Below, piece after piece: positions 1,706 through 55,072 of a stretch of 64,000 nt of DNA (the first letter of the stretch is position 1; every line of letters begins with the position of its first letter). The position numbers were made by a program, and so were the translations under genes. The DNA is from Candidozyma auris (taxonomy: Eukaryota > Ascomycota > Pichiomycetes > Serinales > Metschnikowiaceae): NCBI RefSeq assembly GCF_003013715.1, contig NC_072814.1, forward strand, positions 1,364,001 through 1,428,000, read 5' to 3'. The notes beneath the pieces are model-generated. The model had not been told where the DNA came from, did no database searches, and worked only from the letters and a program-made list of their open reading frames with translations.

Positions 1706-1716
1706 TTTGCAGCCAT
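1706..1716 (-). promoter_or_regulatory. ATGGCTGCRAA element
   Basis: Exact copy (TTTGCAGCCAT on the plus strand) between NIT2 and the FMP46-like gene. Confidence 0.6.
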
Positions 1717-1933
1717 GGCTAGCACTACGGTGGACCGGTCGCGCTATCTGCAGTACATTTCTCACCAAACCAGGCTTTACGCTCGGTGGGAGCAACTCCG
1801 AAAGTAAGGGAGCGGAAGGCGATGTCGAAAGGGAGGGAAGAGCGTGTGTGATGATCATCTCCGGAATTGCAGTTCCAGCAAGATGTGAACGACCATACTC
1901 AATTTCAGAAGACAAGTGGAAGAATTAAAATGA
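1715..1933 (+). CDS. Candidate microprotein, possibly spliced (low confidence)
   Basis: An ATG in good context (GCAGCCATGG) opens a 30-codon frame ending with TAA at 1805-1807. It is Tyr/Arg-rich and reads like the N-terminus of a small mitochondrial assembly factor. A GTAAGG donor overlaps the last sense codon at 1804. Joining it to an acceptor ending at 1908 (TTTCAG) continues in frame to KRQVEELK and a TGA at 1931-1933, giving 37 residues. The branch region (TACTCAA, about 1896-1902) is only a weak match to the TACTAAC seen in the other introns here. I recognise no family. The ATG is also part of the recurrent element at 1706-1716, so the start may be coincidence. Confidence 0.25.
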
Positions 1934-2582
1934 AAATTGGCTCGATTGAGTAACAGTAGAAGTCGGCGCGCCGTTGGGGTTGACAGAAAAAAATAGACTC
2001 AGATCGAATCTCAGAGATACAGAAACAGCTGCCGAGAGAAGTCAACAAACGAACATAACCAAGAAAAGTTAACAAAAACGAAGTTTTAGAAAATCAACCA
2101 AAGAAATGATCATGAATCGAGTTTTTTGAGATTCAATTTTTATTGTCATTCTCCCTTTCACACCTGCCTAATCAATCAAATCTCCTCACTTTCAACCAGC
2201 CGCCAATTTTCATATTTGCGTTTTGTCCCTGTTCTACACAGCCTGGGAGGAGAACAGTCTGGCCAATTTTTTTTTTGCTTCCTTAGTGAGGGCGGGGTAT
2301 CCCTAGGAGAGCGAGACGTGTTCGTATAGAAGTCAGTTTCCTGCACACAGGTGTTTTTTTTGACCCAGGGATTTTTTTGAGCTCTGCCTCAGTACCTTTT
2401 ACGGCCCAACCGATTCAAAAATTTGGCTGTCTCGGATTATCTCCCCCTTCTGTGTGCAGGCGCACACATCGTTCCCGCCTTCGATACCCCTCCCTGGCAT
2501 CGTACAATTAAAGATATAAAAAGACAGCAATTCCCCCAAAGCCTTCATTCTTTTCTTCCTTATCATCGCCTTCAACAGAAAG

Positions 2583-3311
2583 ATGTTCAATTTCAGCAAT
2601 CTCGCCCGCTTCACCGGGTTTGCCCGCGCTGCCAGCCGCTCGGTGGTAGCTTCGAAGCCAACGGTCACTATGTTCCACAATCCCAATGTGCCCATGTCGC
2701 ATCAAATCTTACAAAAATTGAAGGAAAGAGCACCAAAAACCTTCAATTTGGATGTGAGGGAGAATCAATTGCCCCATTACTCCACCTACCATTTCATTCA
2801 CGAAAAGTGCATTAACGTGCACCCACAGAACGCTCGCGGGTTCGAGCGTATCTTCCCTGCGTTGCTCGATTCATCCAACCACACCTTTTGTGACGTTGAA
2901 GTAAGAAAGAACTCAAAACAAAAGCAATTTGTGCCGGACATCGACCTTGTCTCTGAAAACACTTATCTCGACAAGGTTGCTCACCAGAGTGCAAGCAATA
3001 TGGCGCCATTCGCAGTCGATTGGTTCAACCAGTTGGTGGCTACCGATGAGGAAGGATTGAACAGGCTCCTTGCCAATTACAATTCGACGCACATTGTTCG
3101 GGACATGAAGGAGGCTAAAGGTAAAACCGAAGTGGCCAAAGAAGACGCTGTCAAGGTGTGTGCACGTGAGCCCCCATCCAATTTGCAGCCATCCGTTCAA
3201 CACGGGTGTGCCCCTTCTGTGGCCTCAGAGCCCTTCACATCGCGTGCCCTGGCGGCCGCTATGGCTTGTGTTGTCCACCCGCATATTGCTGAATTTGCTG
3301 ATCTCTTTTAA
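2583..3311 (+). CDS. FMP46: Fmp46-like mitochondrial thioredoxin-fold protein (DUF1687)
   Basis: This is a putative mitochondrial redox protein. An N-terminal basic segment without acidic residues (about residues 1-28, many Ala, Ser and Arg) looks like an import presequence. The domain then runs from FHNPNVPMS (about residue 31) through FNLDVRENQLPHY to a C-terminal PFAVDW...LLANY block (about residues 142-167), matching the Fmp46/DUF1687 pattern. The predicted product is 242 residues, far longer than the roughly 133-residue S. cerevisiae protein as I recall it. The last 45-50 residues (from about 3157) look non-protein-like and contain a CACGTG and a copy of the intergenic ATGGCTGCRAA element. 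The 3' end may therefore reflect a lost stop, a frameshift or a sequence error. Assignment is moderate. Confidence 0.65.
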   Translation: MFNFSNLARFTGFARAASRSVVASKPTVTMFHNPNVPMSHQILQKLKERAPKTFNLDVRENQLPHYSTYHFIHEKCINVHPQNARGFERIFPALLDSSNHTFCDVEVRKNSKQKQFVPDIDLVSENTYLDKVAHQSASNMAPFAVDWFNQLVATDEEGLNRLLANYNSTHIVRDMKEAKGKTEVAKEDAVKVCAREPPSNLQPSVQHGCAPSVASEPFTSRALAAAMACVVHPHIAEFADLF

Positions 3312-3782
3312 TGGCTGTGGCCGCCCTCGAGAGATGGAATAGATTATATAGAAATGGGACGGATTGGGAATGCGAGAATCTATGAAGTAGAGAAACCAAG
3401 AGTAACGAGGCGCTTTTTTTTTGTATTGGAAGGCCGATTGCATAGATGTTATGGCCATCGACTTCGAAGAACGGTGTTGAGACTTTTGACGAACACGAGT
3501 GATGACTCCTGGTAAATTTCAATCTTTATCAACTTAGAAAATTTCGGAAAAAATTAGAATAATAGAAGCATCAGAAAGTCAAAGTCGTTGATGACTGAGA
3601 TCTTCTTGCAGTCGAAAGCACACTTGAGGCGTTCGTAGCTAGATGCATCAGAAGCGGTGACGACGGTCCCAAAGTGTAAATCGAGCTTGGCAAAAGCAAA
3701 TGTTCTTTTCATTGACCTTAGCTGCTCACTGAATTTTGTAGTGGGCCCGGCAATAGCCGTCAGCTATCGGCCTTCTCCGAGT
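3312..3782. other. Convergent 3' region FMP46-like/MTC1
   Basis: This 471-bp gap lies between two convergent genes. I see no ORF, RNA gene or repeat in it beyond a short T run near 3415-3421. It presumably carries the two 3' UTRs. Confidence 0.5.
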
Positions 3783-5141
3783 TTATATGCCCATTCTCTT
3801 GGTGACGTACTCTTGTGCCAAAACAGCAAGACTGAGCGAGAGACCCTCTTGAATCCATTCCTTAACCCACTCGCTTGGATCGACTGCCTCGTCATTGTCA
3901 CTGCCGAAATACTCCTCCACGTCTCTCCTGTCACCCGCCACCCAGCGAGCCCACTTCAAGGGGAACGGCTGAGACTTTGTGGAGATGGTGATTTTGTTGG
4001 TGATATCCTTCAAAATCAATGCAAATGCAAACGATTCATTGTTGGTCGTGTCAATAAGTACAGGGCCACCAGAAGATTCCTTTTGAATCTCTTTGAGCTT
4101 ATCGGAGGTTCCGGTACTGATAGGCTGAATTGCAATGAACACATTGCTGCTGTTTATATCCAAGTCACCATCTCTTGCCATTAGCCTCTCCTCTGCATCT
4201 TTTAAATCCTTGTGGTCGGTATTTTCCAGCTCGGTGATCCTGAGGTAATCCTTGATTGAGGAATCGAGATTGGCATAGCACAACTTTTCTCCATCAATCA
4301 TCTTGCCAAAGAATATATCCAAATCATAATATGGTCCCAGACTTTCTTTCGGCTCATGGCGGTGGTTGAAGTTACTCACTGTGACTTTGATGCCTCCCTC
4401 CACTTGAGACATCACCCTGTTGAACTTGGCTGCACACACTTTATCCAAGAAGTCCATGTTGGACACGTCATACACGAGCATGATATTCAACAACTCATCC
4501 TCACGGTCCATGAGCCCATCCTTGATTTGCTGGGAAACTGTTGTGAGTATGGAGTTGAGTCTAGAGGTGATGTGGGAAACCTGGTCATTTTCCAACTTCG
4601 GGTTTTCCTTCAAAAGCTTCTGTCTTGAGTGGCTAAGCTCCTGCGATGTTTTCGACGCCAATTGGTAAGTTTGTTCACCCAATTGCAGCGCATTGGACGT
4701 CAAAGAGCCCCACAACGACAGCGCCTTTTTCGAACCCTCAGATGACCACCACAGAGACAACGACGCAAATGGGTCTGGCATTTGCGCAGCCTCCTCAATT
4801 TTCTCCTGCCACTCCACACTGGCGCTTTTTTCATTGAGAAGTGAAATGTCTTCTTTAGGTTTAGGTGTAGGTGTAGAAGTAGCACTTTCGGGTTCATTTT
4901 GCTGTGCTTTCACGACGGGCGTGCTACTTGAGGACATTCTTTTCTCAATGTCGGTTTTTTTCTCTTTTTTTGGGCCAAGCTTCGCCTTTGAAGGTGTAGC
5001 GCTCTCATGGGCAGACAACTCGTCAAGAAACTCCAAAAAGTCGTCGTTGCCAGCGTTAGACGAGTCGCCCGGCGCTGGCGTGCCCGGGTGCAGATCTGGA
5101 AGCGAGTTGATGAAGTCCATCACATCGTCGTTTTTGCTCAT
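3783..5141 (-). CDS. MTC1: Mtc1 (maintenance of telomere capping 1)
   Basis: This is a Mtc1-family protein, linked genetically to telomere capping and to COPI vesicle traffic in S. cerevisiae; its biochemical role is unclear. The N-terminus has the repeated short motif DVMDFINSLP and DDFLEFLDEL, then a Ser/Thr/Lys-rich low-complexity linker. The conserved family domain starts about residue 110 and runs to the C-terminus, ending in SLAVLAQEYVTKRMGI. I chose the ATG at 5141 (MSKNDDVMDF) because the family motif starts right after it. An in-frame ATG at 5198 would add 19 His/Thr-rich residues. It is convergent with the FMP46-like gene and divergent from the Ste5-like gene 2.3 kb away. Confidence 0.8.
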   Translation of the reverse strand: MSKNDDVMDFINSLPDLHPGTPAPGDSSNAGNDDFLEFLDELSAHESATPSKAKLGPKKEKKTDIEKRMSSSSTPVVKAQQNEPESATSTPTPKPKEDISLLNEKSASVEWQEKIEEAAQMPDPFASLSLWWSSEGSKKALSLWGSLTSNALQLGEQTYQLASKTSQELSHSRQKLLKENPKLENDQVSHITSRLNSILTTVSQQIKDGLMDREDELLNIMLVYDVSNMDFLDKVCAAKFNRVMSQVEGGIKVTVSNFNHRHEPKESLGPYYDLDIFFGKMIDGEKLCYANLDSSIKDYLRITELENTDHKDLKDAEERLMARDGDLDINSSNVFIAIQPISTGTSDKLKEIQKESSGGPVLIDTTNNESFAFALILKDITNKITISTKSQPFPLKWARWVAGDRRDVEEYFGSDNDEAVDPSEWVKEWIQEGLSLSLAVLAQEYVTKRMGI

Positions 5142-6064
5142 GGTGAATCGAAATGTGATTTGAGAATGAAGCGTATCTGTTTGGTGATGTTGGTGCATGG
5201 AAATGATACGGGGTCAGGGTCGCAAGTGCAGGATGGTACTGACGGTGGCAGAAGAAAGGTAAAAAATAAATAAAAAGTACTGTCGATGTTTGTTTTTTGG
5301 TATGATTGAATTATTGCTGGAAGGAATTTATTAGGCTTTGCTTGAGTCTTCTGGGTTACGGTAATTTGAATGGGGCGGATCGCATTGGCGTCTCTCACAA
5401 TAGTATATACGCATTGGACGAGCATAACAGAGTATATGTTGATTTCTTTCTTTTAAACGAGTTGTATAGACTTGATTGAGTTACAAAGCTTCTAAAATTT
5501 GTCGTGGTGGTGTCCTGATAATCTCTAATGTACTTCCAAATATTTGGTATAGAGGGGAATATTTCGAGATTTACCTGACAAGCTTTAGATGTGGGAAGAA
5601 AATTGAACATAAAAAAAAATCAAAAAATGTTCTAGGGTAGCTGTTGATGGCTCGAATTAAAATGACTTCGCTGACTTTTGAGAGACCAGTCAATTCCCTT
5701 GGTTGAGACTGCTGAGAATCCAGGAGACAGATACAGAGTTGTTATAACTTCAAGGACACTAACAGAACACCTCCAATTCCAGAATAAATAATACTGTCCC
5801 ACCTTAATGAGCTGTAGGAGATCCCGTGGAGCTTAGCTCTTTGTATCGGATTACAGTGATTGAAAGCCGAGGATGCAATTCAGAAACTACTTCACACCAA
5901 CCAGCAATGATACTGTGACGCATTGGCGATGCGAGTTGTCCAGAAAAAATAGTCATTATAGCCGCTACTCTAAATTACCCCAGAATTTATCACACGAAGA
6001 ACTCGATGGTTGCAGAGTGAAGCGATCGTACGATCTTCGCTGAAACGAGTCTGCTTTCCGTAAA

Positions 6065-6071
6065 TGTTTCA
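6065..6071 (-). promoter_or_regulatory. Pheromone-response-element heptamer
   Basis: TGTTTCA is the complement of TGAAACA, the binding site of Ste12/Cph1-type factors. It lies about 1.34 kb upstream of the Ste5-like scaffold gene. The match is seen; function is inferred from that gene's expected mating role. Confidence 0.35.
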
Positions 6072-6808
6072 TTGGAAAGAACCAAAGCCACCGAGACAAC
6101 ACAGCCACTCGTTTTACGTATTTAACCCAAGTCACTAGCCGAATGGCCCTACATCTTCTGCGAGGTCTACTTGCATCTATCTGACGCAGTGGCCTAGAGT
6201 ATAGAAAATATTACGCTGCATCTTTTGCCCGAAGTACCTTGCAGAAGCCACTCTCCAATCGAAAGTGCCAGAAGCCCATGTCCCAGTGCAGACAACTCAA
6301 TCTTTTTCCTGCTGCCATTTGCCCGAAAGAAGGAAGTAATGGCTCATCGCGGCTTTTCCAGGGTCTCAAGGGTTTTCAGCACAGCAAGTAGGGACTACAA
6401 CATCACCGCATTAGCGTCAATATCACAACGTAAGGGACCAAAACATTCATAATTTAGATTTTTTTTTTTTTTTGCTGGAGCGACATGGAAACGGGAAGAC
6501 TGTAAGGATTTTTTTCCTCTCTTCACACTCTTCGTTTCCCTTAGAGAGTTGCACATGGCAGGAAAATCGACGATAGCTTCTGAAGCTAAAGCAAAGCCCA
6601 GATTTTAATGTAGATCAAATGGCAGTGGAGGGGTGAAGTTTCATTGCCGTTGCTAGTTGCAGCTCTGGTGTACTCGCCACAAAAGAGACAGGACTTGCCT
6701 GGGTGTGCAAATTCAGCAGAGAGCTGAAAGTGTAGAGTGTATTTTGAGAGAATTTAAAACCATTTTTCGCTGTGGCCTGTACCAGCATCTCAGGTACAAA
6801 CGCAAAGA

Positions 6809-6815
6809 TGAAACA
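6809..6815 (+). promoter_or_regulatory. Pheromone-response-element heptamer
   Basis: A perfect TGAAACA about 600 bp upstream of the Ste5-like gene, and the second copy in this promoter. Single heptamers occur by chance every few kb, so only the pairing with a mating gene makes it notable. Confidence 0.4.
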
Positions 6816-7094
6816 GACTGTGCGTTTTCGCTGCGGCGGTCAGCGGGGGCAAAGTTGGCCAGGGTTTTGCAAGATGGTTCTTTATGGAACAGAACTGTGC
6901 GTTTTCAAATACTTTTCTGCTGAATATGTTCTCTCGCTTTTAAAGAATGTCTGAACACTAAGAAAGGCTTTTTCGTAATTAGTCTTTCGGGATCGTCTCG
7001 CTAGAGGCTTAACAATGGTGCGAAAGTGGTCTCTCGCAGGAAAACAAGTGTTACAGACACTCAATCGGTGGTGAGAGCGCACTTAGCCTAGCAA

Positions 7095-7128
7095 CAGGCT
7101 GCAACATGCTGCAACATGCTGCAACACT
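7095..7128. repeat. Short tandem repeat, unit ATGCTGCAAC
   Basis: About three head-to-tail copies of a 10-bp unit lie roughly 300 bp before the Ste5-like ATG. The first copy reads GGCTGCAAC, so the array is also a set of degenerate versions of the ATGGCTGCRAA element found elsewhere in the window. Confidence 0.6.
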
Positions 7129-7409
7129 TGAAACCTTGCAGGAACCAGGGCAAAACACTCTCTTTGCCCAATTGAGACACTATGCGGACAGCTTCGAAGC
7201 AATGACCCAAATCTATCTAAATTACTTGCATAGGCGGTTGTTTTCTGCACAACCCATGTGCTTTAGCAAGAGCTTCACGAGCGTATTTTCGCCAGAACAT
7301 ATGGGTGCAAATAAAAATAAAAGGAGCCGTCATACCAAGCCGACGTTTCAAATTAATACCAGAGGCTTGCTGATTTTCCAAACTTCAACAACCACTTGAT
7401 ATTCCTCTA

Positions 7410-9161: not shown

Positions 9162-9189
9162 AAGTAAATTTATTAGAGGCATTAAACAC

Positions 9190-12261: not shown

Positions 12262-12547
12262 GAAGATATGCTGAATGAAGCCGCGAAACGAGTTCTATGA
12301 AAATTAAAGAGATTAATGCAATGAATGGAAAAAATGCAATATAAATATGGGCATGAAGCCCTCTAAATTGAAAAATCGACCGAATGTGGCGAGTTTGATG
12401 GAGGAGCAAGAGTTGATGGTATCATGGCGTCACCTTGAAAGGCCTGCACATACATAAGTGACGAAACCTACCATTCTGCTCAACTCTGGTCTCTACATGG
12501 ACGGCAATTCGAAAAGGGTGTCTTGCTAAAATCATATTTCCTCTATT

Positions 12548-13619: not shown

Positions 13620-13630
13620 ATGGCTGCGAA
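13620..13630 (+). promoter_or_regulatory. ATGGCTGCRAA element
   Basis: Exact copy in the TVP15/KAP114 divergent region. Confidence 0.65.
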
Positions 13631-13948: not shown

Positions 13949-13959
13949 ATGGCTGCGAA
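13949..13959 (+). promoter_or_regulatory. ATGGCTGCRAA element
   Basis: Second exact copy in the TVP15/KAP114 region, about 420 bp before KAP114. Confidence 0.65.
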
Positions 13960-17498: not shown

Positions 17499-17531
17499 AT
17501 GGATTTGTGTAATCTTACGCATCTTTCGTGC

Positions 17532-19092: not shown

Positions 19093-20800
19093 GCGGCCAA
19101 ATGACTTATTTGAAGATGTTTAGAGCATTTTCAAGTTGCCAGCATATCCATGATTTTGTCATCTGCTCACCTGTTGGCAGTTGTCAGAAAGGAGCTTGAA
19201 GGAGTCTTTGTCTGTCAGATGCACTGCTTGTTAATAGGACTTGAAGATGCTTACAGGATGAATTAATTTCACTGTTGAAGACGAGCATCGCAATGGCGCC
19301 CTTAAAGGGCCTGGCAAATGTATCAACATATGTACACTATAACGGGACGGATCTTTAAAGCCCGGCAACTGCCAACATTCACATGTGGTGCTAGATGGAT
19401 GTGTGTCAAGAGCTTCAAGTTTGAGGTGTGCCCTCAGCCTAGTGTTACCTTCGGTCTAGTCACATTTTGAAGCATTCAGTATTCTATCTACGGACAGATT
19501 ATGAACTGAACCTGGGACCCTAAGAATCGGGCGCAGAGCTAGGGCGAGCTCGCGTAGACGCTTGCGAAGGACGTCGTTGAAGAAGGTATGTGACACAAAG
19601 ACGTATCAAATGCACAGGGAACAGAAAGAATAGTTAGGGAACGGGGGATGAGGCAGGCAAGGAACATCTCCATCTTTGAAGACTGAAACCTTGTTGATGT
19701 TATAGGTCAACTACAAAAATTGTCGAAAGACAGGCTTCAAGCCTTGCTTAAATCTTTTTAACCCTTATTTAACTCACAATCAGTTCGAACTATTTAACCT
19801 GGTCTTTCCTTGTCCTTCTTGTGCTACTACCACCTCAATTTTCAGGCTGCACAGACTCTCGCGGTTTGCAGCCATTTTAGCAGTCATCTCTGATGAATCA
19901 CAGATTCCTCAACAAAACCACAAAGTCCCGAAAGCAAACCCCCTATTGACTTTGAACGCAACGGAATTTCTTGACTAAATCCGAGCCGACTTTCGCTGAG
20001 CAGTTTTACTGGCGCCGTGCGTGGGCGGTGGGTACGTGAGCTTGTGCGGGTGCCAAACCAAGGAGTAGCACAGTGTGCCCTGACCACCCTCATGAGAAAG
20101 CACATTTATAAGCACAGGTGCAAGAGCCAATGGGGAGCAAGAACAAGTTGAGGCTCCGAGCGGGAAATCCATTAAATTGTGGCGAAGGCGTTACAGTTGC
20201 CATGATTTCAGGCCCAAATCCGGAGTTCGGAACGAATTTCCGAGTTTTGTAGTGCTATTTTTTTTTTTCAGGCCTCCTCGCCCTGCCCTTTTCTCACCAG
20301 CCAGCGCCAGCGAGCAGCCTGGCGCCAGCGAGGATTATTTTTCGCTTGCCGGCCGCGAACCACGGAGTGGAAACGGAGCCTACGCGAGCACTCACCATCC
20401 TCATCCTGGCCCCAACAACCAAGGTGCAAACACAATACATATAGAAGCAAACAAACCCAGCTCAAAAGCGCCCTCCATCTCAAGATCGAATCTTTCACAA
20501 CATCTCAACTCAATTTCACTATCTCCAATTCTGTCCCCCTTTTCCTTTCCTTCCCTTTCCCTTCCTTGCCCTTGCTTATCTTTCTCATCTCTCGCCTGCT
20601 CAGTCTCCTGCCTGGAGCCCTCCCTCGCCCTCAATTTGGCGCCCTAGCACATTACCCAAGGCTGTCGCGTGGCTCTCGTTGCGGTGCTCGCGCTCCGCCA
20701 TATAACCCATGAATCTTCATCGATTCCACCTGGGTCCCTATATCTCCCAAACCACTAGCATCCCTCGCCCACAACCCAACCCCCTAATACATATCCTCGG
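19093..20800. other. Long upstream region of PMR1
   Basis: No gene is recognised in these 1.7 kb. They hold one exact element copy (19865-19875, reverse) and, at about 20520-20630, a long C/T-rich tract typical of a promoter or leader of an expressed yeast gene. Open frames on both strands here (for example around 20177-20647) are low complexity and have no homologue I know. Confidence 0.5.
19865..19875 (-). promoter_or_regulatory. ATGGCTGCRAA element
   Basis: Exact copy in the PMR1 upstream region. Confidence 0.65.
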
Positions 20801-25005: not shown

Positions 25006-25755
25006 TTACCTAAAAACAAGCCATTCGCAACCAAACACTCCAATGGTGATGGCAACGGCACGTAGGTAGTACCACAATGAACCTGGACTGTTGGTGGAAT
25101 AAAGGACCCAAATGTAGTGCAAAGCTGCTAGTCCTGCAACGCCAGCCAAATGGTAGATTGTCTTCACTGACACCGGTTGCACGGGTCCATTGGGCACGGT
25201 CAGATGCAGCAAGAAAGCACTCACCAAGCAAAGAAGGGCAAACACGGGGTAGGTCAAGGGGTGCTGGGCGATACTCGAAAACTTGACCGTAGCAAATACT
25301 GCCAATGCGTATGTGCAATAGGTGACTAACCACAGAAAACGTGGGCAGTATTTTCCAAGTAAGAAGTTTGCGTTGGGGAAAGCATAAGTACCGCCCACGG
25401 TACTCAAGAACAGAGTTACTTCATGAAGGCTTTTGGAGCCTGTTGCTAGAGATGCGGCCTCGAGAATGGCTCTTATCCCACACAATACTAGACCGCAGTT
25501 CATCACCTGCTTGAAACCATATGGCTCATCTAGACGACAGGTGGCAGCCACGTAGAATAGCAACCATGCCATCACGGAACCAGCGTTCGAGATATCATCT
25601 GGCTTGTACAATTCCTGAAGGAATGGCAGAATGCACTCTACTAATGAAAGCACCAGGCAGAAGGCGAGAAACACCACGAGAAAAACCCTGTGGTTGGTGT
25701 AAACCACGGGCTCACTTCTCAAAAGTGGCGAGTCCGAGGGCTTTTCCTTAATCAT
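25006..25755 (-). CDS. Uncharacterised multi-span membrane protein
   Basis: The 249-residue product has about seven hydrophobic spans (roughly residues 23-46, 60-73, 84-105, 112-125, 139-156, 162-186 and 196-246, the last probably two). A short polar N-terminus carries Lys, Ser and Asp. There is no signal peptide, catalytic motif or family pattern that I recognise. The start ATG at 25755 follows a short leader. It sits downstream of, and in the same direction as, the heat-shock-type gene, with 180 bp between them. A transporter or an organelle membrane protein are both possible. Coding status is supported by length and by regular spacing of hydrophobic segments. Confidence 0.7.
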   Translation of the reverse strand: MIKEKPSDSPLLRSEPVVYTNHRVFLVVFLAFCLVLSLVECILPFLQELYKPDDISNAGSVMAWLLFYVAATCRLDEPYGFKQVMNCGLVLCGIRAILEAASLATGSKSLHEVTLFLSTVGGTYAFPNANFLLGKYCPRFLWLVTYCTYALAVFATVKFSSIAQHPLTYPVFALLCLVSAFLLHLTVPNGPVQPVSVKTIYHLAGVAGLAALHYIWVLYSTNSPGSLWYYLRAVAITIGVFGCEWLVFR

Positions 25756-27945: not shown

Positions 27946-28029
27946 CTCCCGGTGGCCAAGCTGGCTAAGGCGCGAGACTGTAATGTGATTGTAATCTTGA
28001 GATCGGGTGTTCGACTCACCCCCGGGAGA
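27946..28029 (+). tRNA. tRNA-Tyr (GTA) with a 10-nt intron
   Basis: The acceptor stem CTCCCGG pairs with CCGGGAG (28022-28028), with discriminator A at 28029. The A box region TGGCCAAGCTGG and B box GTTCGACTC are present. The anticodon arm CGAGA-CTGTAAA-TCTTG forms after removal of 27984-27993, placing the intron one base 3' of the anticodon as in other tRNA-Tyr genes. A TTTT terminator follows at 28030-28033. Confidence 0.93.
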
Positions 28030-28038
28030 TTTTCCTTT

Positions 28039-28111
28039 GCCTTTATGGCCAAGTTGGTAAGGCACCTCACTAGTAATGAGGAGATCGTCAGTTCGAATCT
28101 GGCTGAAGGCA
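28039..28111 (+). tRNA. tRNA-Thr (AGT)
   Basis: The gene is 73 nt. Acceptor GCCTTTA pairs with TGAAGGC (one G-U pair), discriminator A. The anticodon loop is CTAGTAA with anticodon AGT. B box GTTCGAATC is perfect. A run of seven T follows at 28113-28119. It lies nine bases after tRNA-Tyr in the same direction; each has its own terminator. Confidence 0.94.
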
Positions 28112-28150
28112 ATTTTTTTATATTTCTGACTAACCATAAATCCTAATTAA

Positions 28151-30937: not shown

Positions 30938-30948
30938 ATGGCTGCGAA
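30938..30948 (+). promoter_or_regulatory. ATGGCTGCRAA element
   Basis: Exact copy about 510 bp upstream of KHA1. Confidence 0.65.
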
Positions 30949-34839: not shown

Positions 34840-35042
34840 TGACGGAAATTGCAGCCATTCCCGAGAGCGGTAAAGGAAATAGGAGTTTTTTTTTGGGGTG
34901 ACGTTCCTGATTCCACTCGTTTACGAGAATAAGGCGATTTTACCGCCACGGCGGCTGCGAAAAAAACTCCCACCGCAGAGCCGCCAAAGTTTAAGTAGAG
35001 GGAACCAGGAAGTCAGAACCGAAACAAAACAACATCACCAAA

Positions 35043-35379: not shown

Positions 35380-35390
35380 TTCGCAGCCAT
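35380..35390 (-). promoter_or_regulatory. ATGGCTGCRAA element
   Basis: Exact copy in the same region, about 1.2 kb before the C2H2 factor. Confidence 0.65.
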
Positions 35391-39227: not shown

Positions 39228-40778
39228 TCACAATTTTGCCTCTCTCTCAAACACATTGACATGAGAGCTCTGTAAATTCCACGTCTTCACAACGTCATCA
39301 TTCAAAACAATATCGTCGTCTTTTTTATCCTTGTCAACTCTCGTCCTGTAGCATTCAAACACCAATTCCAGAGGAATACAGAGGCAAAACAGGGGCACTT
39401 TCTCAGACTTGATCTCCTCGTATTGAAGGCCAGAAACTGAAGGTTTGAAAACCTGAGCATTGCTGCTGACAATCCCAATTAGCTTCCCACTCAGATCAAA
39501 AAGTCCACCTCCAGAAGACCCATTCCAGCATTGTGAAGAAGCCACAAGCATGCACGGAATTTCAGGATACTCAGTTCTGAAAGGATTATGACGAATGACC
39601 GAGGAAAGGTGACCCTTGGAGACGATCGGATCGAGGAAGTCATGATTGAGCAAAAGTCCATGGCCTACAGTGGAAACTTCATCTGTCACATTCATCTCAC
39701 CCGCAAATCCCATTGGCGCTGACTGAACATGGGCCAACGCCAACTGCTTCTCCTCTGAGAGTTGTATAAATGCCAAGTCTAGGTCTGTAAAGGGTACAAT
39801 TACCTTGTCTTTTTCGGTGAGATTCACTGAGTGGTCTTTTCCTAAAGTTATGCTGCAGCACACAGAATCGTGTTGAAGATAGGGTCGTATCACATGGTGG
39901 TTCGTGACAAGGGTATCTTTTTTGAGTTTGACGCAGGACCCCCATGAGGATGGATGTCCAAACAGCGAAATAACGAGCGGGAGAACTGGTTGGCTCTGAG
40001 AAGAAGCAGATGCCGCCAAGTTGGAGCGACGAAGTTCGTTCTCTACTTTAACCTTCTCAAACAAACGGTCCCACGGTGCTATCACCATAAGATCGCCATC
40101 GCCATTAAGCTTTCTCAAGTTGCCCAACAAAAGCCCCACAGAACCGCCGCTGCCACCATTCACAACGCTCCCGCACATATTCTCTAGGTATTTCATATCG
40201 CTGAGGAAACCACGGGCCACCTGGTCTCCATCTCGAATAACAGCGTTTATATGGCCCGTAGAGATAAAGTCAGAAAACAACGCAGGACTGGTGAAATTGA
40301 ATGGAAACGATCTTATCGTCACTTTTGTTAATTCCTGAGCCTGCTCCACGTGAAATGGCTGCAAATGCTTCGAGTCGATTTCTGTGTGGATAGCTCGACA
40401 ATGCACTACCATCACTGTCATCGACTGAAGAGAATTTCCCACGAACGTATCAAGCGGGATCATATTGAACCCGTTTTTTAGCGCATACTGAAGGTACTCT
40501 CTCAAGGCATCATTCTTCTCCAGCAAAACAGGTACCGTAGTTCCTCTGATCCCTTGTACCCACTGCACGCCATTCTCTCTCATAAGAGGCTTGCACGACA
40601 CGTACATTTTATACTTATCGATCTCTTCCACTGGTGTATGGCAGATCAGGATGCAAAAGTGTCTTTTGAAAGAGGTTCCGTCCTTATTGACCAAGTAGAT
40701 TCCCGAGTAGCTCTGTGAGGGCACGTCTGAGCGCTGAGATACAAGACGTATGCACACAGGTACATAAAGCCACACCAT
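39228..40778 (-). CDS. Peroxisomal trypsin-like protease, TYSND1/Deg15 type
   Basis: The C-terminal half is a trypsin-fold domain with the triad His295 (LVTNHHVI), Asp334 (TDLDLAFIQL) and Ser422 (NGSSGGGLF). The last three residues are Ala-Lys-Leu, a canonical PTS1 peroxisome signal. This combination matches TYSND1 (animals) and Deg15 (plants), which remove PTS2 presequences or process peroxisomal enzymes. The N-terminal half has a weak second protease-like pattern without a triad (GSVVNGGSGGSVGLLLG near 203-219). Its substrates here are unknown. The ATG at 40778 is the first in frame. An exact ATGGCTGCRAA copy lies 150 bp upstream; a second copy at 40355-40365 lies inside the CDS. Confidence 0.82.
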   Translation of the reverse strand: MVWLYVPVCIRLVSQRSDVPSQSYSGIYLVNKDGTSFKRHFCILICHTPVEEIDKYKMYVSCKPLMRENGVQWVQGIRGTTVPVLLEKNDALREYLQYALKNGFNMIPLDTFVGNSLQSMTVMVVHCRAIHTEIDSKHLQPFHVEQAQELTKVTIRSFPFNFTSPALFSDFISTGHINAVIRDGDQVARGFLSDMKYLENMCGSVVNGGSGGSVGLLLGNLRKLNGDGDLMVIAPWDRLFEKVKVENELRRSNLAASASSQSQPVLPLVISLFGHPSSWGSCVKLKKDTLVTNHHVIRPYLQHDSVCCSITLGKDHSVNLTEKDKVIVPFTDLDLAFIQLSEEKQLALAHVQSAPMGFAGEMNVTDEVSTVGHGLLLNHDFLDPIVSKGHLSSVIRHNPFRTEYPEIPCMLVASSQCWNGSSGGGLFDLSGKLIGIVSSNAQVFKPSVSGLQYEEIKSEKVPLFCLCIPLELVFECYRTRVDKDKKDDDIVLNDDVVKTWNLQSSHVNVFEREAKL

Positions 40779-41467
40779 GGTTTTGGGTTTTTATGGTGGC
40801 CGTCTTTTAGTGGGATTTGGGTGAAAAAGTTGAAATGTGGAGATTGACAGTTGGTGTGCATGGAGGCTGGATAAGTGATAAAGAGCCTCGGGTGAGAGTT
40901 CGCTCGGTTGGTGCAGGTAGAGAACCAATGGCTGCAAAATAAGAAGGATGGGCCCGCATATTTGATTGAAGGTATTGAAATCAATGACCGGTATGTGATC
41001 TTTTTGAGTGAATCTAAAGAGCAAAAGGTCCTCTTTTATTTACAGGAGTGGGGAGGTCTTGTACGGGAGTGAGAGTGGAGGAATGAAGGTGAAAGTGATA
41101 GGGTGAATGATTTTGTAAGATGTGAATCATAGCATATTGCTCGAATTCAGTCAAATGTGTTAGATGTGCCACTAAAAGATGCAAGCATTGACTTTTGTAG
41201 AGCCGTTTTTCAATCTTCCTTCGACCATATTGTCCGAGGATCATCACAAGAATGCCTTAAGAGACCCAAAAATTCCAGCCTAGCAAATGGCAAATAGCTT
41301 TGTTTCGTTCCAGATGCTGTTCGTTGATGCCTCCAGCCTATATTTGAATTCTATCGGAAATGAGAACGATGGTGATAAAAATTTGGGAATATCGATTCTC
41401 TTAGACTCGAAGATGGCGAAAACCAGTTAGCAGGTCTCTCATTCCTTAGAAACGAAGCCTCATCTTT
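40779..41467. other. Protease promoter / Nudix gene 3' region
   Basis: An exact element copy occurs at 40928-40938. No gene or repeat is recognised otherwise. Confidence 0.5.
40928..40938 (+). promoter_or_regulatory. ATGGCTGCRAA element
   Basis: Exact copy 150 bp upstream of the peroxisomal protease gene. Confidence 0.65.
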
Positions 41468-43960: not shown

Positions 43961-44074
43961 GCTTGCTGTGAGTGTCAACTATGAATTTTAGCTATTAGCA
44001 TCAATTTGGGTGGACTTTTTATGTATTAATACATGTACAATAATATATATAAATTAACAAAATAATAGTGTGAC

Positions 44075-45379: not shown

Positions 45380-47549
45380 AGTCAAGTGGGAGTTTTGTTT
45401 TGGGATATGTTATGATATGCTGTAAGATTACCGGGGGTTGTTGACCGGTAGATGTGTTGATATTGACCGGAAGTAAGCGAGAAAGTGAGGAAATTGGGGA
45501 CCGGATGAGGTTCAGAGGTGTCAAAAAAGTCCCCGGATGTCACGTGGACACCGGTCGGATCGGCTGATAGAGAGGTGCCGAGGGGGGGTTAGGATTGAAA
45601 GACAAGAAGTATTTGAAATTTTTGGTGATTTAATTAGGATATGCTAGTTATTTGTTGGGATGTGCCTCTTTGTGATATTTAGGTGTTTTGAGGGTGACTT
45701 TTGTTGGGCGTTTAGAGTTGCTTTTTGCACAAAGTGATTCAGACAAGCCAAATATTAAAGATGAATTGTCTTCTTGAGCAATAGTGGTCTCTTGTCTTTC
45801 TATGAATATTGATGAAGAATTCTGGAATGTCCACGTCCAAAAAAAAAAAAATTATAAACTTGAAGAATGCTAACAATCCACAAAATGCAGTTTAAGGAGC
45901 CGTCACATTAAACGGATGATAGGTTTGAGCGTTTGCAGTCATCTTTGATGAACAAAAAGCCCTTGGATGGCTGCGGTATAAATTGAATCTTCAAGCCTGA
46001 AGAATAGGAGAGAAACATTCTTCTCGATGTGGACAATTATGTCTATGATATGAGTTCCTCGGGCATGGCGGCTCTTTTTGAAACAGCTATTTTCAGGAAT
46101 CCGAATCTGGTATGACCATGACACACAGAGACGATATTCAGGTGCTTTTTTTCCCAGATGAAGCTGGCTGGTGGAGTACGCAGCCGAGTGCCATCAATGA
46201 AGTAGTCAAATAGCGAAATGAAGTCATTATCAAGAACAGTGTCGATAGGGGTCTGATATCATTGAAGTATTTCCCGTCGTGTAGAATGAAACAACTTATA
46301 AACGCAGTATACCAAACTTAGCTAGTATTGATCTTCTGTGGAATTTGTTAGTGGAGATGGTGCACGTCGACGCAATTGATGGTATTTCCAACAGAAGTCA
46401 TGCCCCTAGAAGGCTACGCTTGTCATTTAGCACTACCTAGAAGCTTGGGTTGAAAAAGTTTCAAATACCAAGGTAGAGAAAATAGACTCGCTTTAACAGG
46501 AGAGTCTTCACCTAAAATTTCAGAGCATCGATCTGTCAGTTTGATCATCAAAGCGACGGTATATTTGCACCCATCCTACAAAAGAGAAAGACCAATAGAG
46601 TTTCAGCTCAAAGGAGGTAGCATTTTTAGCTTCTTTGATTGGATTTTGCCTCTCAAAAGTCAATAGTTGGCCCACAGCATGCTGCCTCAGCCATGATTCT
46701 TTCCAAAGAGCTCTAATTCGCCCGTGAGCCCACTACTACTTGCTACATTCTTGAGAAAAGTTGCTGGCAGTTTTTAGCCACCAAACGCCTCCAATCTTCC
46801 AATTGTCTCTTCTATAGGGGTTGCTGCCAAAATTTGAGCCCAAAACCTTGTTTTGTAGCATTTGCACTTACTAGTGCGGCGAGAATTCCCTTACGTGTCC
46901 CGGGAGAAGTGACGCTTTTCAATGTGATGTTGCGCCTTTTCAACTTTTGCGGTGTAAAGGCTAAGCAAGCTTTCGAGGAATGCTGGAAGCCAAACTTTGT
47001 TAGGAAAGAGCGGGAGGTGACGTTTTTCCCAACTCTCACAGTATGTATCTTCTTTGGGGATTTGGACCAGCCGTACTGCACACAAGCGCCACACTTGGCG
47101 GTAGTACCACCTAGCATCGAGACGCAGCAATGTCGAGACTCACGCAACTTGCCCCACTGGATCTATTTCTTCTGCCGCTTTGGTGCTTCTTCTGCTGGTT
47201 AGCTTCACTGAAGGGGTATTGACCAGCGTCCAGAAAAATGTTACGTCAATGGTCCCTGCAAGCGACTATTCTGTATGCAGTGCGCGATCGTATGGGTGCA
47301 TATTTTTTGCAACCTTTTCCCAAGCTACAAAGACCTTATATATAGCCAGTTTTGTCGCCTTTTTTTGTCATTTCCCTGCTTTCCCACATCACCACTACAA
47401 AACAAAAAACAACAAAAACCTCTCCATAGTCGACCTGAGCGCAGCGAGAAACAGACAACTTTATCCCACCTCCAGTCCTTCCTTATCTTAGACCCACCCC
47501 AGTCCTTCCTTTCCAGAAAAACACACTCACCCCAGTCTTTCTTTAAAAC
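45380..47549. other. Divergent promoter, BED factor / secreted protein
   Basis: These 2.2 kb hold a CACGTG (45541-45546), a 13-A run (about 45840-45852), a one-mismatch element copy (45932-45942) and a TATA box at 47336-47345. A 101-codon reverse-strand frame from an ATG at 47117 to a stop at 46812 encodes a Lys/Arg-rich sequence with no relatives I know. It is the best unsupported ORF here, but I do not call it. Confidence 0.45.
47336..47345 (+). promoter_or_regulatory. TATA box of the secreted-protein gene
   Basis: TTATATATAG lies 205 bp upstream of the ATG at 47550, in front of a C-rich leader. A strong TATA element is in keeping with a regulated or highly expressed cell-surface gene. Confidence 0.5.
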
Positions 47550-49333: not shown

Positions 49334-49982
49334 ATGGGTATGTTTAAAGTGCCAGAAATATGAGGAGATTGAAATCAGAAGTCCCAGATTTTAGATAAAT
49401 GAATTTAAGAATGACATGATGACGTTTTATGAGACTTCTTTGGTGTTAAATGTGTTGCACAAGATTCCAGTTGAAAAGTTACCAAAGCTTGCGAGAATGC
49501 TGAACTACTCCTCGAAATAGCGAAAAATTTGAAAATGCCCCCATCCCCAAGCTACAATGTCCATATCTTGCCATACTGTTCCTCTCCCTATGTGATTTTC
49601 CAAAGCTCAGTTCACTATCTTTAGAGATCAATCTCCCTCCAACTATTCCTATACTAACCTTCCAGTTAACGTCCCAAAAACCAGAAGAACCTACTGCAAG
49701 GGCAAGGACTGCAAGAAGCACACCCAGCACAAGGTCACCCAGTACAAGGCTGGTAAGGCTTCCTTGTTTGCCCAGGGTAAGAGAAGATACGACCGTAAGC
49801 AGAGCGGTTACGGTGGTCAGACCAAGCCAGTTTTCCACAAGAAGGCTAAGACCACCAAGAAGGTTGTCTTGAGATTGGAGTGTGTTGTCTGCAAGACCAA
49901 GGCCCAGTTGGCTTTGAAGAGATGTAAGCACTTTGAGTTGGGTGGTGACAAGAAGCAGAAGGGCCAGGCCTTGCAGTTCTAA
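49334..49982 (+). CDS. RPL42: Ribosomal protein eL42 (Rpl42/Rpl44), one intron
   Basis: This large-subunit ribosomal protein lies at the E site. Exon 1 is only ATGG (49334-49337). The intron is 49338-49665 (donor GTATGT, branch TACTAAC at 49652-49658, acceptor CCAG), and exon 2 is 49666-49982. The 106-residue product is near-identical to eL42 across yeasts, with zinc ligands in YCKGKDC and ECVVCKTK. Residue 56 is Pro ([10 protein letters not shown]), the form associated with cycloheximide sensitivity; Gln at this site gives natural resistance in several Candida species. Codon use is strongly biased to AAG, TTG, GGT and GTC, as expected for a very highly expressed gene. Confidence 0.97.
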
Positions 49983-51484
49983 GCGCTGCCCGGTCGGGTT
50001 ATTTTGTACTTTACGACATATACTCCATAATATAGTTATCCTTGAATGATTGTAGGGCCGTGACCATGATGTGAAATACCCAGAATGGGTCAATGTGTTA
50101 AAATGTTGCGGTTAGATGTCATACACTTGACAACGTGAAGCAGGCACGAGACCCTCTGCAGAGGTTTTGAGTACCTCAAATTGTGGATCCTTGTAGGGTT
50201 TTATGAATGGCAGTAACACTGTGACATAGAGCTAGTAGAGGCTTCACACGTAACAGGATCGAATCGGCCCTATACAACAGATTAGGGAAGTAATCCTTCT
50301 GCAAAACGTACTTGAAGCAGCTCAAAGATCATTTGATTAGAGATGGGAACCAAATTTAACAACATGCTTCTTCATGCCCCTCCTTTTAATGCCAGGCCCT
50401 CACTTATACCTTTTAGGTCCAACTTCTGCTGGTTGCATTTGTCATGGTCAATCACCAATCTTACTTATGAAGCTGTTTCTTATAGCAATGCTACTGAGAA
50501 TGTTATATTAGCTTAGTCAAAGAACCCTCTGTGAGATTAAGAAGAGGAAGCACAAAATATGATATGGCCGGTGTATTTGACGGGGACGTTGGATTTCATT
50601 GAATTTATAGAAGTTTTAAGCTTTTTCGCAGCCAGTACGAGAAGGGCTCAACAGAGCGAAAGTATTCCAAAGACCCAAGAAATTCAAGCAGATTCGAAAA
50701 ATCATTAACATTGAGACCACATATCCTGAGCAATCTCCACGACTCATTTTCCTTCATTCATCTCGGTGTTGAAACTCATCGAGTACGTGCTACTTACTGC
50801 AGTGAGCACTGTATTGGACGCAAACATTCTCGCTCTCACCTGGTGAGACCACAGTTTAAGTCAACCAAGGTTCAAAGTGTTCAGTCTTCAAAACCCAGCA
50901 CAATTTTCATTTTTTCTTTTCACATTACGCAAATTCTGTGATACACGATCTCAAATTAAAATTTTGCAACCTCTGCTTCAAATAGTATCTTGTTTTTGAC
51001 TCTTCCCTTTGCGACACTTTTTTGATCTGTTGTGTACCTTCAGCGCGTTCAGGCACGGCTGGAGCTATCCCTAGAACGTAGCTGAGACAGTGGCTAAACG
51101 GTGTCTACTAGCTAAGAAAGAATGCCAATAAAGAACAAACCTGTTCGAAATGAACCATTTACTTCAGGATTTTGAACTGTGCTTCGTCCAACCCCTATTT
51201 ATGTACGGGGTGTACGGGTTTTCTTTTTCCGCTGGAGTCCATCAGCCACGATGGAAGAATGAGAATGTTTTCGATCCTCAAGACATAGACCTACCTTCAT
51301 TCTTCGATCCATCTGATCTTCGCGTTCCTTACTCCGTTCTTGTCCAAAGCCCGCTCTTTTAGTCAAACTGCATTTAAAGCTGCAATTATCTGTATCATTC
51401 CACTCAGATCAAGCTTTCGCTGAAAATTAGACTAGCACAACTTCAATACCTTTAAAACATCCGTTCTACTGAGAAGTACACCTC
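49983..51484. other. CBK1 upstream region
   Basis: These 1.5 kb have a one-mismatch element copy at 50625-50635 and several short open frames without homologues (for example 50711-50941 and 51150-51362). No RNA gene is recognised. Confidence 0.5.
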
Positions 51485-53743
51485 ATGAATTACAACCACG
51501 ACTACATGGCCCAGACGCGTGCTGACCACGCCAACGGGCAAGCCCAGCTCAACAGGGCACCAGCGTATCAGCAGCAACAGCATCCCCAGCTACAGCACCA
51601 GCAGATCCCCAATTTGGCGTTTCGTAACCAGCAGCACCAAGAGTATCACGAAGATTCGTTCATGGACGAGGACACGTCGGGTTTTGTTGAAAATCTGCCT
51701 TCTCAGGAAGCTCAAGTACCGGGGACTAATAGATACACTCAGTTTTACCAGCAGCCGGTGCTTCAGAATCACTATCAGCAACAGCAACAACAGCAACAAC
51801 AGCAACAGTACGAGCAAAACGTTCAGGTTTCTCCAACCTTCTCGAATGGCCACTTCGACAACTACCCAGGAGACAACAATAGACACCTCCATCTGGTGGA
51901 CTCTGGGTCGCTGGACGTGTTTAGGCCGCCTCAGGGTATTACTACCTTGAACAATATCTCCAACACGAACTTGCTGGAGGTGAGCAACTCAAACAACTCA
52001 GTGACAAACTCGTTGAATGATCCATTGACGTATTCCCACAATAACGTCTCTGTGGGCAACTTGGCTTCGTCGTCACCTCCAAAGCAGCACTCACCCATCC
52101 AACCTCATGTTCAGCTCCAAATGCAGCAACCGCCACATCCAACAATTCCGCTGTTGCAATCTGGGTTGAAGCAGCCAAACCCTCAGTATAGAAATAGTGA
52201 CACTCCACGAACTCCCCCATCGCAGGTGGCTAATCTGCCCGGGAAGTCTGGGGAGGTTCGTGACAGGAGAAATAACTACGTATACTTCAACAGAAACCCA
52301 GATCTCATGAGCAAAGTGACTCAAGATAAAGCCGCTGCCATGAAGCTCAGGCTCGAGAATTACTACCAAATGTCTGTGAGCCACGCCATTGAGAGAAATC
52401 AGCGTAGATTGGACTTAGAAAACAAGTTGATGGCTGAAGAGGCTGGACTGAGTGAAGAAAGAAAAAATAGGCAGTTGCAAAACTTGGGGAAGAAAGAGTC
52501 TCAGTTCTTGCGTCTTAGAAGGACAAAATTATCTTTGGATGACTTTATTACGGTCAAAGTGATTGGTAAAGGTGCCTTTGGTGAGGTCAGATTGGTGCAG
52601 AAAAAAGACACAGGTAAGATCTACGCCATGAAGACCCTTTTGAAATCTGAAATGTACAAGAAAGATCAATTGGCGCACGTCAAGGCGGAAAGAGACGTTT
52701 TGGCTGGCAGTGATTCTCCTTGGGTGGTCTCTTTATACTACTCATTCCAAGATCACGTCAATCTCTACTTGATTATGGAATTTCTTCCCGGAGGCGATCT
52801 TATGACGATGTTGATTCGTTGGCAAATCTTTACGGAAGACATTACGCGATTCTATATGGCAGAGTGTGTTTTGGCGATCGAGGCCATTCACAAGTTGGGT
52901 TTCATACATAGAGACGTGAAGCCAGACAATATCTTGATCGATAAGAGAGGACATGTGAAGCTCTCTGACTTTGGATTATCGACAGGGTTCCATAAGACAC
53001 ACGACTCCAAGTACTACAAAAAACTTCTAGAGAAGGAGGACAACAAGGTACAGAACTCCATGTTGCAAGTTCCCGGGAAGGGCCAAGCACAGCGTAATTC
53101 GATGATGGTCGATGCCATTCATTTGACCATGAGCAACAGACAGCAAATGCAGACGTGGAGAAAATCCAGAAGACTCATGGCGTATTCAACAGTGGGCACG
53201 CCCGACTACATTGCTCCCGAGATCTTTATTCACCAAGGTTACGGTCAGGAATGTGACTGGTGGTCGCTTGGGGCCATCATGTTTGAGTGTCTCATTGGAT
53301 GGCCCCCTTTCTGTTCTGAGACACCCCACGAGACGTACAGGAAGATCATCAATTGGCAGGAAACGTTAGTGATTCCCGAGGACATTCATTTGCTGCCGGA
53401 AGCCGAGGACTTAATCCGGAGGCTCTTAACCAGTAGTGACAGGAGACTTGGCAGGCACGGTGGGGCCGATGAAATCAAGCAGCATCCGTTCTTCCGCGGT
53501 GTCGACTGGGAAACAATCAGGCGAGTGGACGCGCCATTTATCCCAAAACTCAAATCGATTACTGATACAAGATTTTTCCCTACCGACGAGCTTGAAAATG
53601 TACCTGACAGCCCTGCGATGACAAGGGCTCACAAGCAGCAACAGCAACAGCAACAAGACGGAAAGAATATCAAAGAGGATTTACCATTCATTGGGTACAC
53701 GTACTCGAGATTTGATTACCTTACGAGGAAAAATGCATTGTAA
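51485..53743 (+). CDS. CBK1: Cbk1 NDR-family kinase of the RAM network
   Basis: This NDR/LATS kinase works with Mob2 to control cell separation, polarised growth and wall integrity. The N-terminus is Gln/Asn-rich with an 11-residue poly-Gln run (about 51775-51807). The Mob-binding NTR helix lies at about residues 280-325. The kinase domain starts near 350: [11 protein letters not shown] at about 361, the HRDVKPDN catalytic loop with Asp477, and DFGLSTGF. An insert typical of NDR kinases separates DFG from the activation segment [14 protein letters not shown]. The hydrophobic motif [11 protein letters not shown] carries Thr739. Length 752 is normal. A CTG at 53393-53395 (residue 637) sits where the S. 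cerevisiae enzyme, as I recall it, has Ser, pointing to the CUG-Ser code. Confidence 0.97.
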
Positions 53744-55072
53744 ATTTCGAGAATTCAAATGGTTGCAAAAAAGTACGATGAATACAAGAAGAACAAAGAG
53801 CCACTGGGGTGGAGAGTGCATGGTGCGCATGAGGGAGCAAAAGGGTTTTTTTTTTTGTTTAATTCAGGTGTGGATGGCGTGACTGAGCAAAAAAAGGTAA
53901 ATGTTGCCACTAGCACAGAGGAATTGTTCGGCAATAATCCCCATCGGGGTTATTGCATCCTGCACACATGCGGCTACATACCGTTAGAATGTGAGACACG
54001 CTAAATTACTAAGAAAACTGAGGCGAGTGAGCAAAAAAACATGCAGCACACTAGCCACATGCAATCCGGCCGGAACTGTCATAACCCGAAGGGATCAAAA
54101 CCGAAAGCAAAAAAAAAAAGCTCACGAGATAGAATTGCCAGCAACAAAAGAGCATGCACAGTGCGAAGCTTAAAGAAGCATTGCTTGCTCGAGACACTCT
54201 TGTCGAAAGGTGTCTCTTTGCAGAATCGGGCCACAAAGGAAATTTATGGACGGAATTCTAGGCATATGCCCTGCCTGAAGCGAAAAAAAAAAAATTACCA
54301 TTGCGAAAGAAGCAGTTGTTAATGACAAAATGACGCTCCTGTGCAATGAGCCGCTTGCCATGAACATGCCGAAACTACCGGGTCAAGCTAATCCCCGGAG
54401 AAGAGAAAAAAGCTGTTGGGACGGCTAGAACGTTTCTAAATCTGGCTATCCACGTTTTGTTGTCTCCACAACGGGCTTAGATGCTGAAGCCTAATCACTC
54501 AGGAGCGTGAATAGCGGAGAGCGTAATTTACACCCCAGCTTTAGTTCCCTTACCTCTCCTCGGCCGGCATTGACTAAAGGTGCCTCCATATGCGCGCTGA
54601 GATGACCAGCGAAAAAAGGTGCAAGACACACAAAAATTGATTGATTACCGGTTTTGCCGAAGGCGATGTCTTAGCCAAGCTTAAAAATTAAGAATGAAAA
54701 AATATTATCAATCACGGCTGTAACAGCTGGGCACTTCCGATCTCGTCCGGAGACAACTCCCGCAGCCCGACGCTTCACCCGAATTTCTACACTCATTTCA
54801 TCCATGTTCCTGTACTGCACACAGGCCCCACTCACACACTGCTGCTGCTCCTGCTGCTTCCGAGTGTACACCCCGTTGTTGCGGCTGCTGCCCCGAACAT
54901 CATTTATAATCAGCGCTGCTTCCTGCCATTGAGTCAGATCTGTTACTAACAGCGTTGAACCCAAGGTTCAAAATACGTACGCAAACGAATCCCAGCTCTC
55001 CGATCTTATCCGTTGCCCTTGACAACCGCTTCCGCGTCTTCGACTCCCCCACCTATCTCGTTTGCAGCCACC
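53744..55072. other. Intergenic CBK1-YTP1
   Basis: These 1.3 kb hold a one-mismatch element copy right after CBK1 (53759-53769), a strong hairpin (53931-53956), several A runs, and a near-exact element copy ending 2 bp before the YTP1 ATG (55061-55071). No gene is recognised. Confidence 0.5.
53931..53956. repeat. Short perfect-type hairpin downstream of CBK1
   Basis: GCAATAA pairs with TTATTGC and CCCC with GGGG, with one bulged T and a loop of three bases. It lies 190 bp after the CBK1 stop and could be an mRNA 3' structure. Confidence 0.6.

Follow-up and report, generated by a model that had tools for sequence, protein, structure and literature searches.

We analyzed a 64,000-nucleotide stretch of the Candidozyma auris genome (contig NC_072814.1, positions 1,364,001 to 1,428,000; hereafter the window), more specifically an 11-bp word, ATGGCTGCRAA, which a first-pass annotation had described as a recurrent promoter element. 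This word is the exact form of an element that is abundant throughout the genome and concentrated in intergenic DNA, and that is probably the site of a protein resembling a general regulatory factor (GRF). The 14 exact copies that the annotation reported are all present where it placed them, 8 on the plus strand and 6 on the minus strand, and its chance expectation of 0.06 copies per 64 kb is correct given equal base frequencies. The copies are given below, with the open reading frames (ORFs; lengths in amino acids, aa) that they touch.

1706..1716, minus strand: exact element ATGGCTGCAAA
3182..3192, minus strand: exact element ATGGCTGCAAA, within a 242-aa ORF
13620..13630, plus strand: exact element ATGGCTGCGAA
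13949..13959, plus strand: exact element ATGGCTGCGAA
17532..17542, plus strand: exact element ATGGCTGCGAA, flanked by an importin-like gene and a Sua5 gene
19865..19875, minus strand: exact element ATGGCTGCAAA
24707..24717, minus strand: exact element ATGGCTGCAAA
27312..27322, minus strand: exact element ATGGCTGCAAA, about 44 bp into a 474-aa ORF from its mechanical start
30938..30948, plus strand: exact element ATGGCTGCGAA
32644..32654, plus strand: exact element ATGGCTGCAAA
34350..34360, plus strand: exact element ATGGCTGCAAA, within a 178-aa ORF of doubtful reality
35380..35390, minus strand: exact element ATGGCTGCGAA, within a 142-aa ORF of doubtful reality
40355..40365, plus strand: exact element ATGGCTGCAAA, within a 516-aa ORF on the opposite strand
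40928..40938, plus strand: exact element ATGGCTGCAAA

Most of these copies are noncoding, as had been proposed, and the count of 12 in 14 has to be revised to 11 when ORFs of at least 200 aa are considered (the copies at 3182, 27312, and 40355 lie within such ORFs); the figure varies with the ORF cut-off. The window holds about 2.4 times the mean copy density of the genome (14 exact copies versus 5.7 expected, Poisson p 0.0025), which is probably why the element was noticed there.

Abundance and sequence of the element

We searched the whole genome (12.25 Mb, 7 contigs), using each pattern read backwards as a control. ATGGCTGCRAA occurs 1,100 times (560 forward, 540 reverse) versus 2 occurrences of the control and an expectation of about 11 given the base composition, a frequency far from random. 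Allowing one mismatch gives 3,332 matches versus 202 in the control. For closer analysis, we assembled an unselected sample of 264 kb, consisting of the window and 20 pieces of 10 kb (L001-L020) across all seven contigs. The 20 pieces hold 18 copies, matching the genome mean, so that the sample looks representative.

The sample contains 45 one-mismatch copies, versus 6 for the reversed control. Thirteen of them differ at position 1, where A is replaced by T, G, or C, and 12 at position 5, where C is replaced by T or G, never by A; a further seven differ at position 7 (one of them outside ORFs of at least 150 aa) and five at position 11 (two outside). Since the substitutions pool at positions 1 and 5, the element is better described by the shorter, slightly degenerate motif TGG[C/T/G]TGC[A/G]AA (TGGBTGCRAA), which has 3,128 matches genome-wide versus 106 for the reversed control; the wider pattern TGGNTGCNAA has 3,598 versus 252. 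Among the 75 sites of TGGBTGCRAA in the sample, the fourth base is C in 45, T in 16, and G in 14. TGGATGCRAA is absent from the sample, whereas six TGGATGCAAA are found among the first 100 TGGNTGCNAA matches listed genome-wide, which indicates that A is disfavoured at the fourth base, not forbidden. The motif also sits in an A-rich frame, with A just before TGG in 44 of the 75 sites, A one base further upstream in 47, and A after the terminal AA in 47, roughly AATGGCTGCRAAA.

The revised motif changes the list of variant copies in the window. Four of the seven near copies given by the first-pass annotation match it (48825, 50625, 53759, and 55061) and three do not: those at 34848 and 45932 have one mismatch each, at rarely changed positions, and that at 34951 has two. 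The variants matching the motif in the window are the following.

768..777, plus strand: variant TGGGTGCAAA, within a 335-aa ORF
7302..7311, plus strand: variant TGGGTGCAAA, about 100 bp upstream of a 583-aa ORF
25024..25033, minus strand: variant TGGTTGCGAA, within a 249-aa ORF
46564..46573, minus strand: variant TGGGTGCAAA
48825..48834, minus strand: variant TTGGCTGCGAA, core TGGCTGCGAA
49191..49200, minus strand: variant TGGGTGCGAA
50625..50634, minus strand: variant CTGGCTGCGAA, core TGGCTGCGAA
53760..53769, plus strand: variant TGGTTGCAAA
55061..55070, minus strand: variant GTGGCTGCAAA, core TGGCTGCAAA, directly before a 598-aa Ytp1-like ORF starting at 55073

The element is highly specific in sequence. 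Exact copies of TGGBTGCRAA in intergenic DNA number 64, versus a mean of 0.9 (maximum 3) over 60 column permutations. Intergenic one-mismatch copies are in excess mainly toward the ends of the motif: 11 and 10 versus 2.7 and 2.9 permuted for its first two positions and, about twofold, 5 and 6 versus 2.4 for its last two, with hardly any excess in between. As the mismatches are confined mainly to the ends, the element is not surrounded by an even halo of decayed copies. Beyond two bases upstream and one base downstream of the core, the flanks carry at most about 0.2 bit of information in both 62 exact sites and the 75 sites of the wider motif, and such near-random flanks indicate that the element is not a dispersed repeat; the extended flanking similarity expected of a repeat family did not appear.

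These counts also bear on the idea that the element might arise as a side effect of signals in coding sequence or RNA, for instance start codons or upstream ORFs. The element does begin with ATG in its exact form, and one copy (L015:253) falls on the mechanical start of a 672-aa ORF, whose true start may be downstream. Nevertheless, the first A is freely replaced by T, G, or C, the two strands are nearly equally represented, and few one-mismatch copies are changed at an inner position. Repeat family, start codon, and upstream ORF are all refuted by the flank, strand, and mismatch counts, and we give this family of explanations a negligible probability.

When intergenic words of the sample are ranked by over-representation, omitting words with a run of six A or T, the element and its variants come out as the top 8-, 9-, and 10-mers; TGGGTGCAAA, for instance, has 10 intergenic copies versus 0.6 expected. 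Lower in the list are AAAAGAAA, CCTGCACA, and the Cbf1-type word CACGTGAC. A second over-represented word is CCTGCACAC/GTGTGCAGG, with 8 intergenic copies versus 0.6 expected and none in ORFs, and the 8-mer CCTGCACA has 13 intergenic copies versus 3.0 expected, again with none in ORFs. In the open-licence literature that we searched, by listings and passages, the element is not described and no listed paper contained one of its full 10-mers, a scope that does not prove absence. The main text of a C. albicans ATAC-seq paper contains neither GCAGCC nor GGCTGC (PMC7559329).

Position relative to genes and to other copies

Genes in the sample were approximated by ORFs of at least 200 aa (107 ORFs, 63% coding), because a strict codon-usage gene filter lost real genes (82 genes, 44% coding). 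Outside these ORFs we find 28 of 32 exact copies (density ratio 11.8) and 64 of 75 sites of the wider motif (density ratio 9.8, p 1e-17), that is, a roughly tenfold higher density in intergenic than in coding DNA. Under other gene definitions, 59 of 75 sites lie outside at a threshold of 150 aa, 67 of 75 at 250 aa, and 70 of 75 are intergenic with the strict filter. Extrapolated from the density of ORFs, the genome would have roughly 5,000 genes, hence about 0.6 element per gene.

The wider motif is present in 25 of 46 tandem and 11 of 19 divergent intergenic regions, compared to 1 of 19 convergent ones (36 of 65 versus 1 of 19, Fisher p 6e-5). This assignment leaves out 22 of the 75 sites, which lie within ORFs or have a single flanking ORF in their piece. 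The initial statement that the element stands in front of most genes is thus too strong, and what holds is that 36 of the 65 tandem or divergent regions carry it. Its occurrence in both orientations is borne out, as tandem-region sites point in the same direction as the downstream gene in 13 cases and in the opposite direction in 19. In these tandem regions, the median distance from site to ATG is 417 bp.

An element of replication origins, bound by the origin recognition complex, or another chromosome-maintenance element might likewise gather in intergenic DNA, and intergenic enrichment, either orientation, an even spread within regions, and the tandem copies described below all agree with such a role. 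The approximately 3,000 sites, however, far exceed the usual number of yeast origins, only one of the convergent regions carries the element, and its surroundings are not AT-rich like those of an autonomously replicating sequence, which makes a chromosome-maintenance role very improbable.

The copies are also arranged non-randomly relative to each other. Genome-wide, there are 63 same-strand pairs spaced by 0-30 bp, versus 0 in the control, and these 63 head-to-tail pairs compare to only 5 tail-to-tail and 6 head-to-head close places (p 5e-10). The periods peak at 10-12 bp, with 22 pairs at 11 bp, 9 at 10 bp, and 3 at 12 bp, and the head-to-tail excess persists (p 0.006) when these 34 pairs are removed while all 11 inverted places are kept. 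Two arrays, with six copies at a 10-bp period (C3:1751045-1751104) and five copies at an 11-bp period (C7:589213-589266), account for 9 of the 34 pairs. Same-orientation pairs one helical turn apart suggest either that proteins bind cooperatively to one face of the DNA or that copies have spread by tandem duplication.

We further cut 30 loci around exact sites elsewhere in the genome, the first 25 of which (L021-L045) were used for the positions of the central sites, and scanned 20 chosen ORFs from L021-L041, under half of the ORFs listed for L021-L045, against Pfam. Sixteen of these ORFs adjoin an exact site and four (in L023, L037, L038, and L039) contain it. Pfam families were obtained for 16 of the 20, the other four having none: NPL4, CDC37, VPS9, an amino-acid permease, a major-facilitator transporter, an M24 peptidase, a ferric reductase, an EH domain, a pyridoxal-dependent decarboxylase, SurE, NmrA, HDA2-3, CDC4, and three Zn-cluster regulators. 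The 20 scanned ORFs share no apparent pathway, and these mixed functions agree with the earlier remark that the neighbouring genes are functionally unrelated.

Other features were observed along the way. The Sua5 protein of the window is 84% identical to a Candidozyma protein and 98% identical to another database protein; Candidozyma belongs to the order Serinales. A 923-aa ATPase contains six CTG codons. Of the four that fall within its alignment to a human protein, three stand opposite A, P, or V, and the fourth stands opposite a leucine next to a gap. At 27946-28112, genes for tRNA-Ser(CGA) and tRNA-Thr(AGT) follow each other on one strand with 8 bp between them, possibly as a co-transcribed pair. 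The seven contigs of the genome agree with the seven chromosomes published for C. auris and some of its relatives (PMC8262905).

Candidate binding proteins

The first-pass annotation had noted a loose likeness to the site of animal YY1, which would make the element a fungal counterpart bound by a C2H2 zinc-finger protein. The YY1 site, AANATGGCGGC, indeed has an ATGGC.GC core in common with the element, and the genome is rich in C2H2 genes (78 PF00096 matches). Positions 1 and 6, however, set the two sites apart: the first A of ATGGC is dispensable in the element, and G is not enriched at the sixth position, the corresponding form ATGGCGGC having a single copy in the sample and none in its intergenic DNA. 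We translated 20 zinc-finger stretches covering part of the 78 matches, plus one in the window, and among these 21 no YY1-like protein was recognised; the two four-finger arrays resemble Azf1 and Zap1. On the substitution spectrum and the inspection of these finger stretches, the YY1-type zinc finger is rejected as binder, and we hold this reading of the element to be highly unlikely.

Two of the PF00096 matches, C6:242419-242577 and C6:388210-388368, belong to zinc-finger genes on the same strand, 145,791 bp apart, with equal scores and 296-aa frames, a pair that looks like a recent duplication.

A closer likeness is found with the iron regulators Aft1 and Aft2, WRKY-GCM1 factors whose site, YRCACCC, reads TGGGTGCA on the other strand and fits TGG[CTG]TGC[AG]AA. 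TGGGTGCA is over-represented in the intergenic DNA of the sample. The element differs from the Aft site in that it prefers C as fourth base, that the AA tail belongs to the motif, and that its copy number far exceeds the need of an iron regulon. As to the core GGGTGCA/TGCACCC of an Aft/Rbf1-type site, the variant TGGGTGCAAA is enriched, yet 61 of the 75 copies have C or T at the fourth base. The AFT family (PF08731) scores over the cut-off at two loci, one of which is Aft2-like, and a third locus lies below it; the Aft2 structure considered was chain 4lmg. The three AFT-like loci are at C1:1360574-1360786, C2:2309098-2309436, and C4:814946-815158. Among the homologues found with S. cerevisiae Aft2 as query, no named protein came from the CTG clade.

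Rbf1 is a CTG-clade factor of the WRKY-GCM1 group, a group derived from transposases. Its RPG box has CACCCA in common with the complement of the motif, and Rbf1 reportedly binds a telomeric repeat, going by the title of a 1997 study. Rbf1 of C. albicans occurs in other CTG-clade species (PMC11221756) and has been described as an RPG-box DNA binder (PMC3904162). The literature passages that we searched contained no genome-wide Rbf1 motif.

Such factors raise the alternative that the element serves an ordinary activator or repressor whose regulon is very large but specific, for example a growth or iron regulon under Aft2 or Rbf1, and not a general factor that opens chromatin. The fit and over-representation of TGGGTGCA and the presence of an Aft2-like locus are in line with it, the broad and even upstream positions would suit an activator, and a ferric reductase is one of the 20 scanned ORFs, though the site lies inside that ORF. 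A regulon of approximately 3,000 copies, with neighbours spanning CDC37, VPS9, HDA2-3, SurE, permeases, and Zn-cluster regulators, is difficult to reconcile with a specific function, and the preference for C over G at the fourth base (45 versus 14 of 75) departs from the Aft site. We therefore consider a large specific regulon unlikely.

A general regulatory factor as the predicted binder

The sites of GRFs such as Reb1, Abf1, Rap1, and Cbf1 number in the hundreds to thousands, stand in unrelated promoters, follow a long specific motif, and occur in either orientation. The element resembles these budding-yeast sites in all four respects, and is not known to match any of the four sites themselves. 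Because it is a long asymmetric word, found in either orientation in about half of the promoter-bearing regions without a visible bias in gene function, a GRF site is the simplest reading, and we think it probable that the element is the site of one abundant GRF-like protein in this Candidozyma yeast. The counts show that the element is abundant, sequence-specific, intergenic, used in either orientation, and not a repeat, with close pairs mostly head to tail; binding by a protein and the opening of chromatin are inferences.

The Reb1/Nsi1 site RTTACCCGG is not enriched in the whole genome (60 matches versus 140 for the reversed control), and this count below the control suggests that Reb1 does not act widely at promoters in this yeast, or that its specificity has shifted. 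The Cbf1-type site RTCACGTGAC has 148 strand-counted matches versus 23 in the control, far rarer than the element. For the bare six-base CACGTG, the sample yields 70 strand-counted matches, and the strict gene filter places 54 of these in intergenic DNA. The Nsi1 peaks called early in C. albicans contain TTACCCGG (PMC7565893), a core whose sequence differs from the element. GRF use shifts among yeast clades, and novel motifs depleted of nucleosomes occur, as passages of another study report (PMC2897762).

The first-pass annotation had already recognised the pattern of a GRF or nucleosome-positioning site. Abundance, intergenic density, both orientations, mixed gene functions, and the lack of repeat flanks uphold the GRF part of this reading; the even spread of sites in tandem regions does not. 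This spread is one of several observations that weigh against a GRF. A classical GRF site is expected to cluster near the nucleosome-depleted region, whereas the tandem-region positions are indistinguishable from uniform (Kolmogorov-Smirnov p 0.90) and show no gathering near the gene start; the distances, referred to the ATG rather than to the transcription start, extend from 63 to 2,838 bp in tandem and from 65 to 1,218 bp in divergent regions (5th-95th percentiles). Around the 62 of 64 intergenic sites that have 400-bp flanks, no clear chromatin signature is seen in the base composition, and the excess of A/T tracts is weak (A6/T6 0.40 versus 0.30). The convergent regions have a density of 0.19 per kb versus 0.64-0.78 per kb in the other regions, but they are short (1 site in 5.3 kb versus about 3.8 expected), so that their per-base deficit is weak evidence taken alone. 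Eleven of the 75 sample sites lie within ORFs of at least 200 aa, as do 5 of the 25 central sites in L021-L045, one of them deep within an NPL4 gene.

If the element is nevertheless a GRF site, a WRKY-GCM1 factor of the Aft/Rbf1 kind may tentatively be put forward as its binder, because the Aft site fits the motif and the genome holds AFT-family loci besides the Aft2-like one. In a bolder and rather doubtful version, a transposase-derived factor of this type would be the chief GRF of Candidozyma, with approximately 3,000 sites, would have assumed the role of Reb1, Abf1, or Cbf1 in other yeasts, and would bind head-to-tail pairs one helical turn apart.

Whatever its family, a single abundant, sequence-specific protein would recognise TGG[C>T,G]TGC[A/G]AA, at sites present in roughly half of the intergenic regions that bear promoters, in either orientation and upstream of functionally unrelated genes. 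Once bound, it would open or position the promoter chromatin, which would let other regulators and RNA polymerase II act.

With a ten-base definition and approximately 3,000 sites, both the binder and its effect on chromatin are open to direct test by existing methods. The element would provide a test case for the evolutionary replacement of general regulatory factors, and would guide promoter annotation and motif work in the medically important C. auris. As a dominant promoter element, it would provide a key to how promoters are organised in this yeast.

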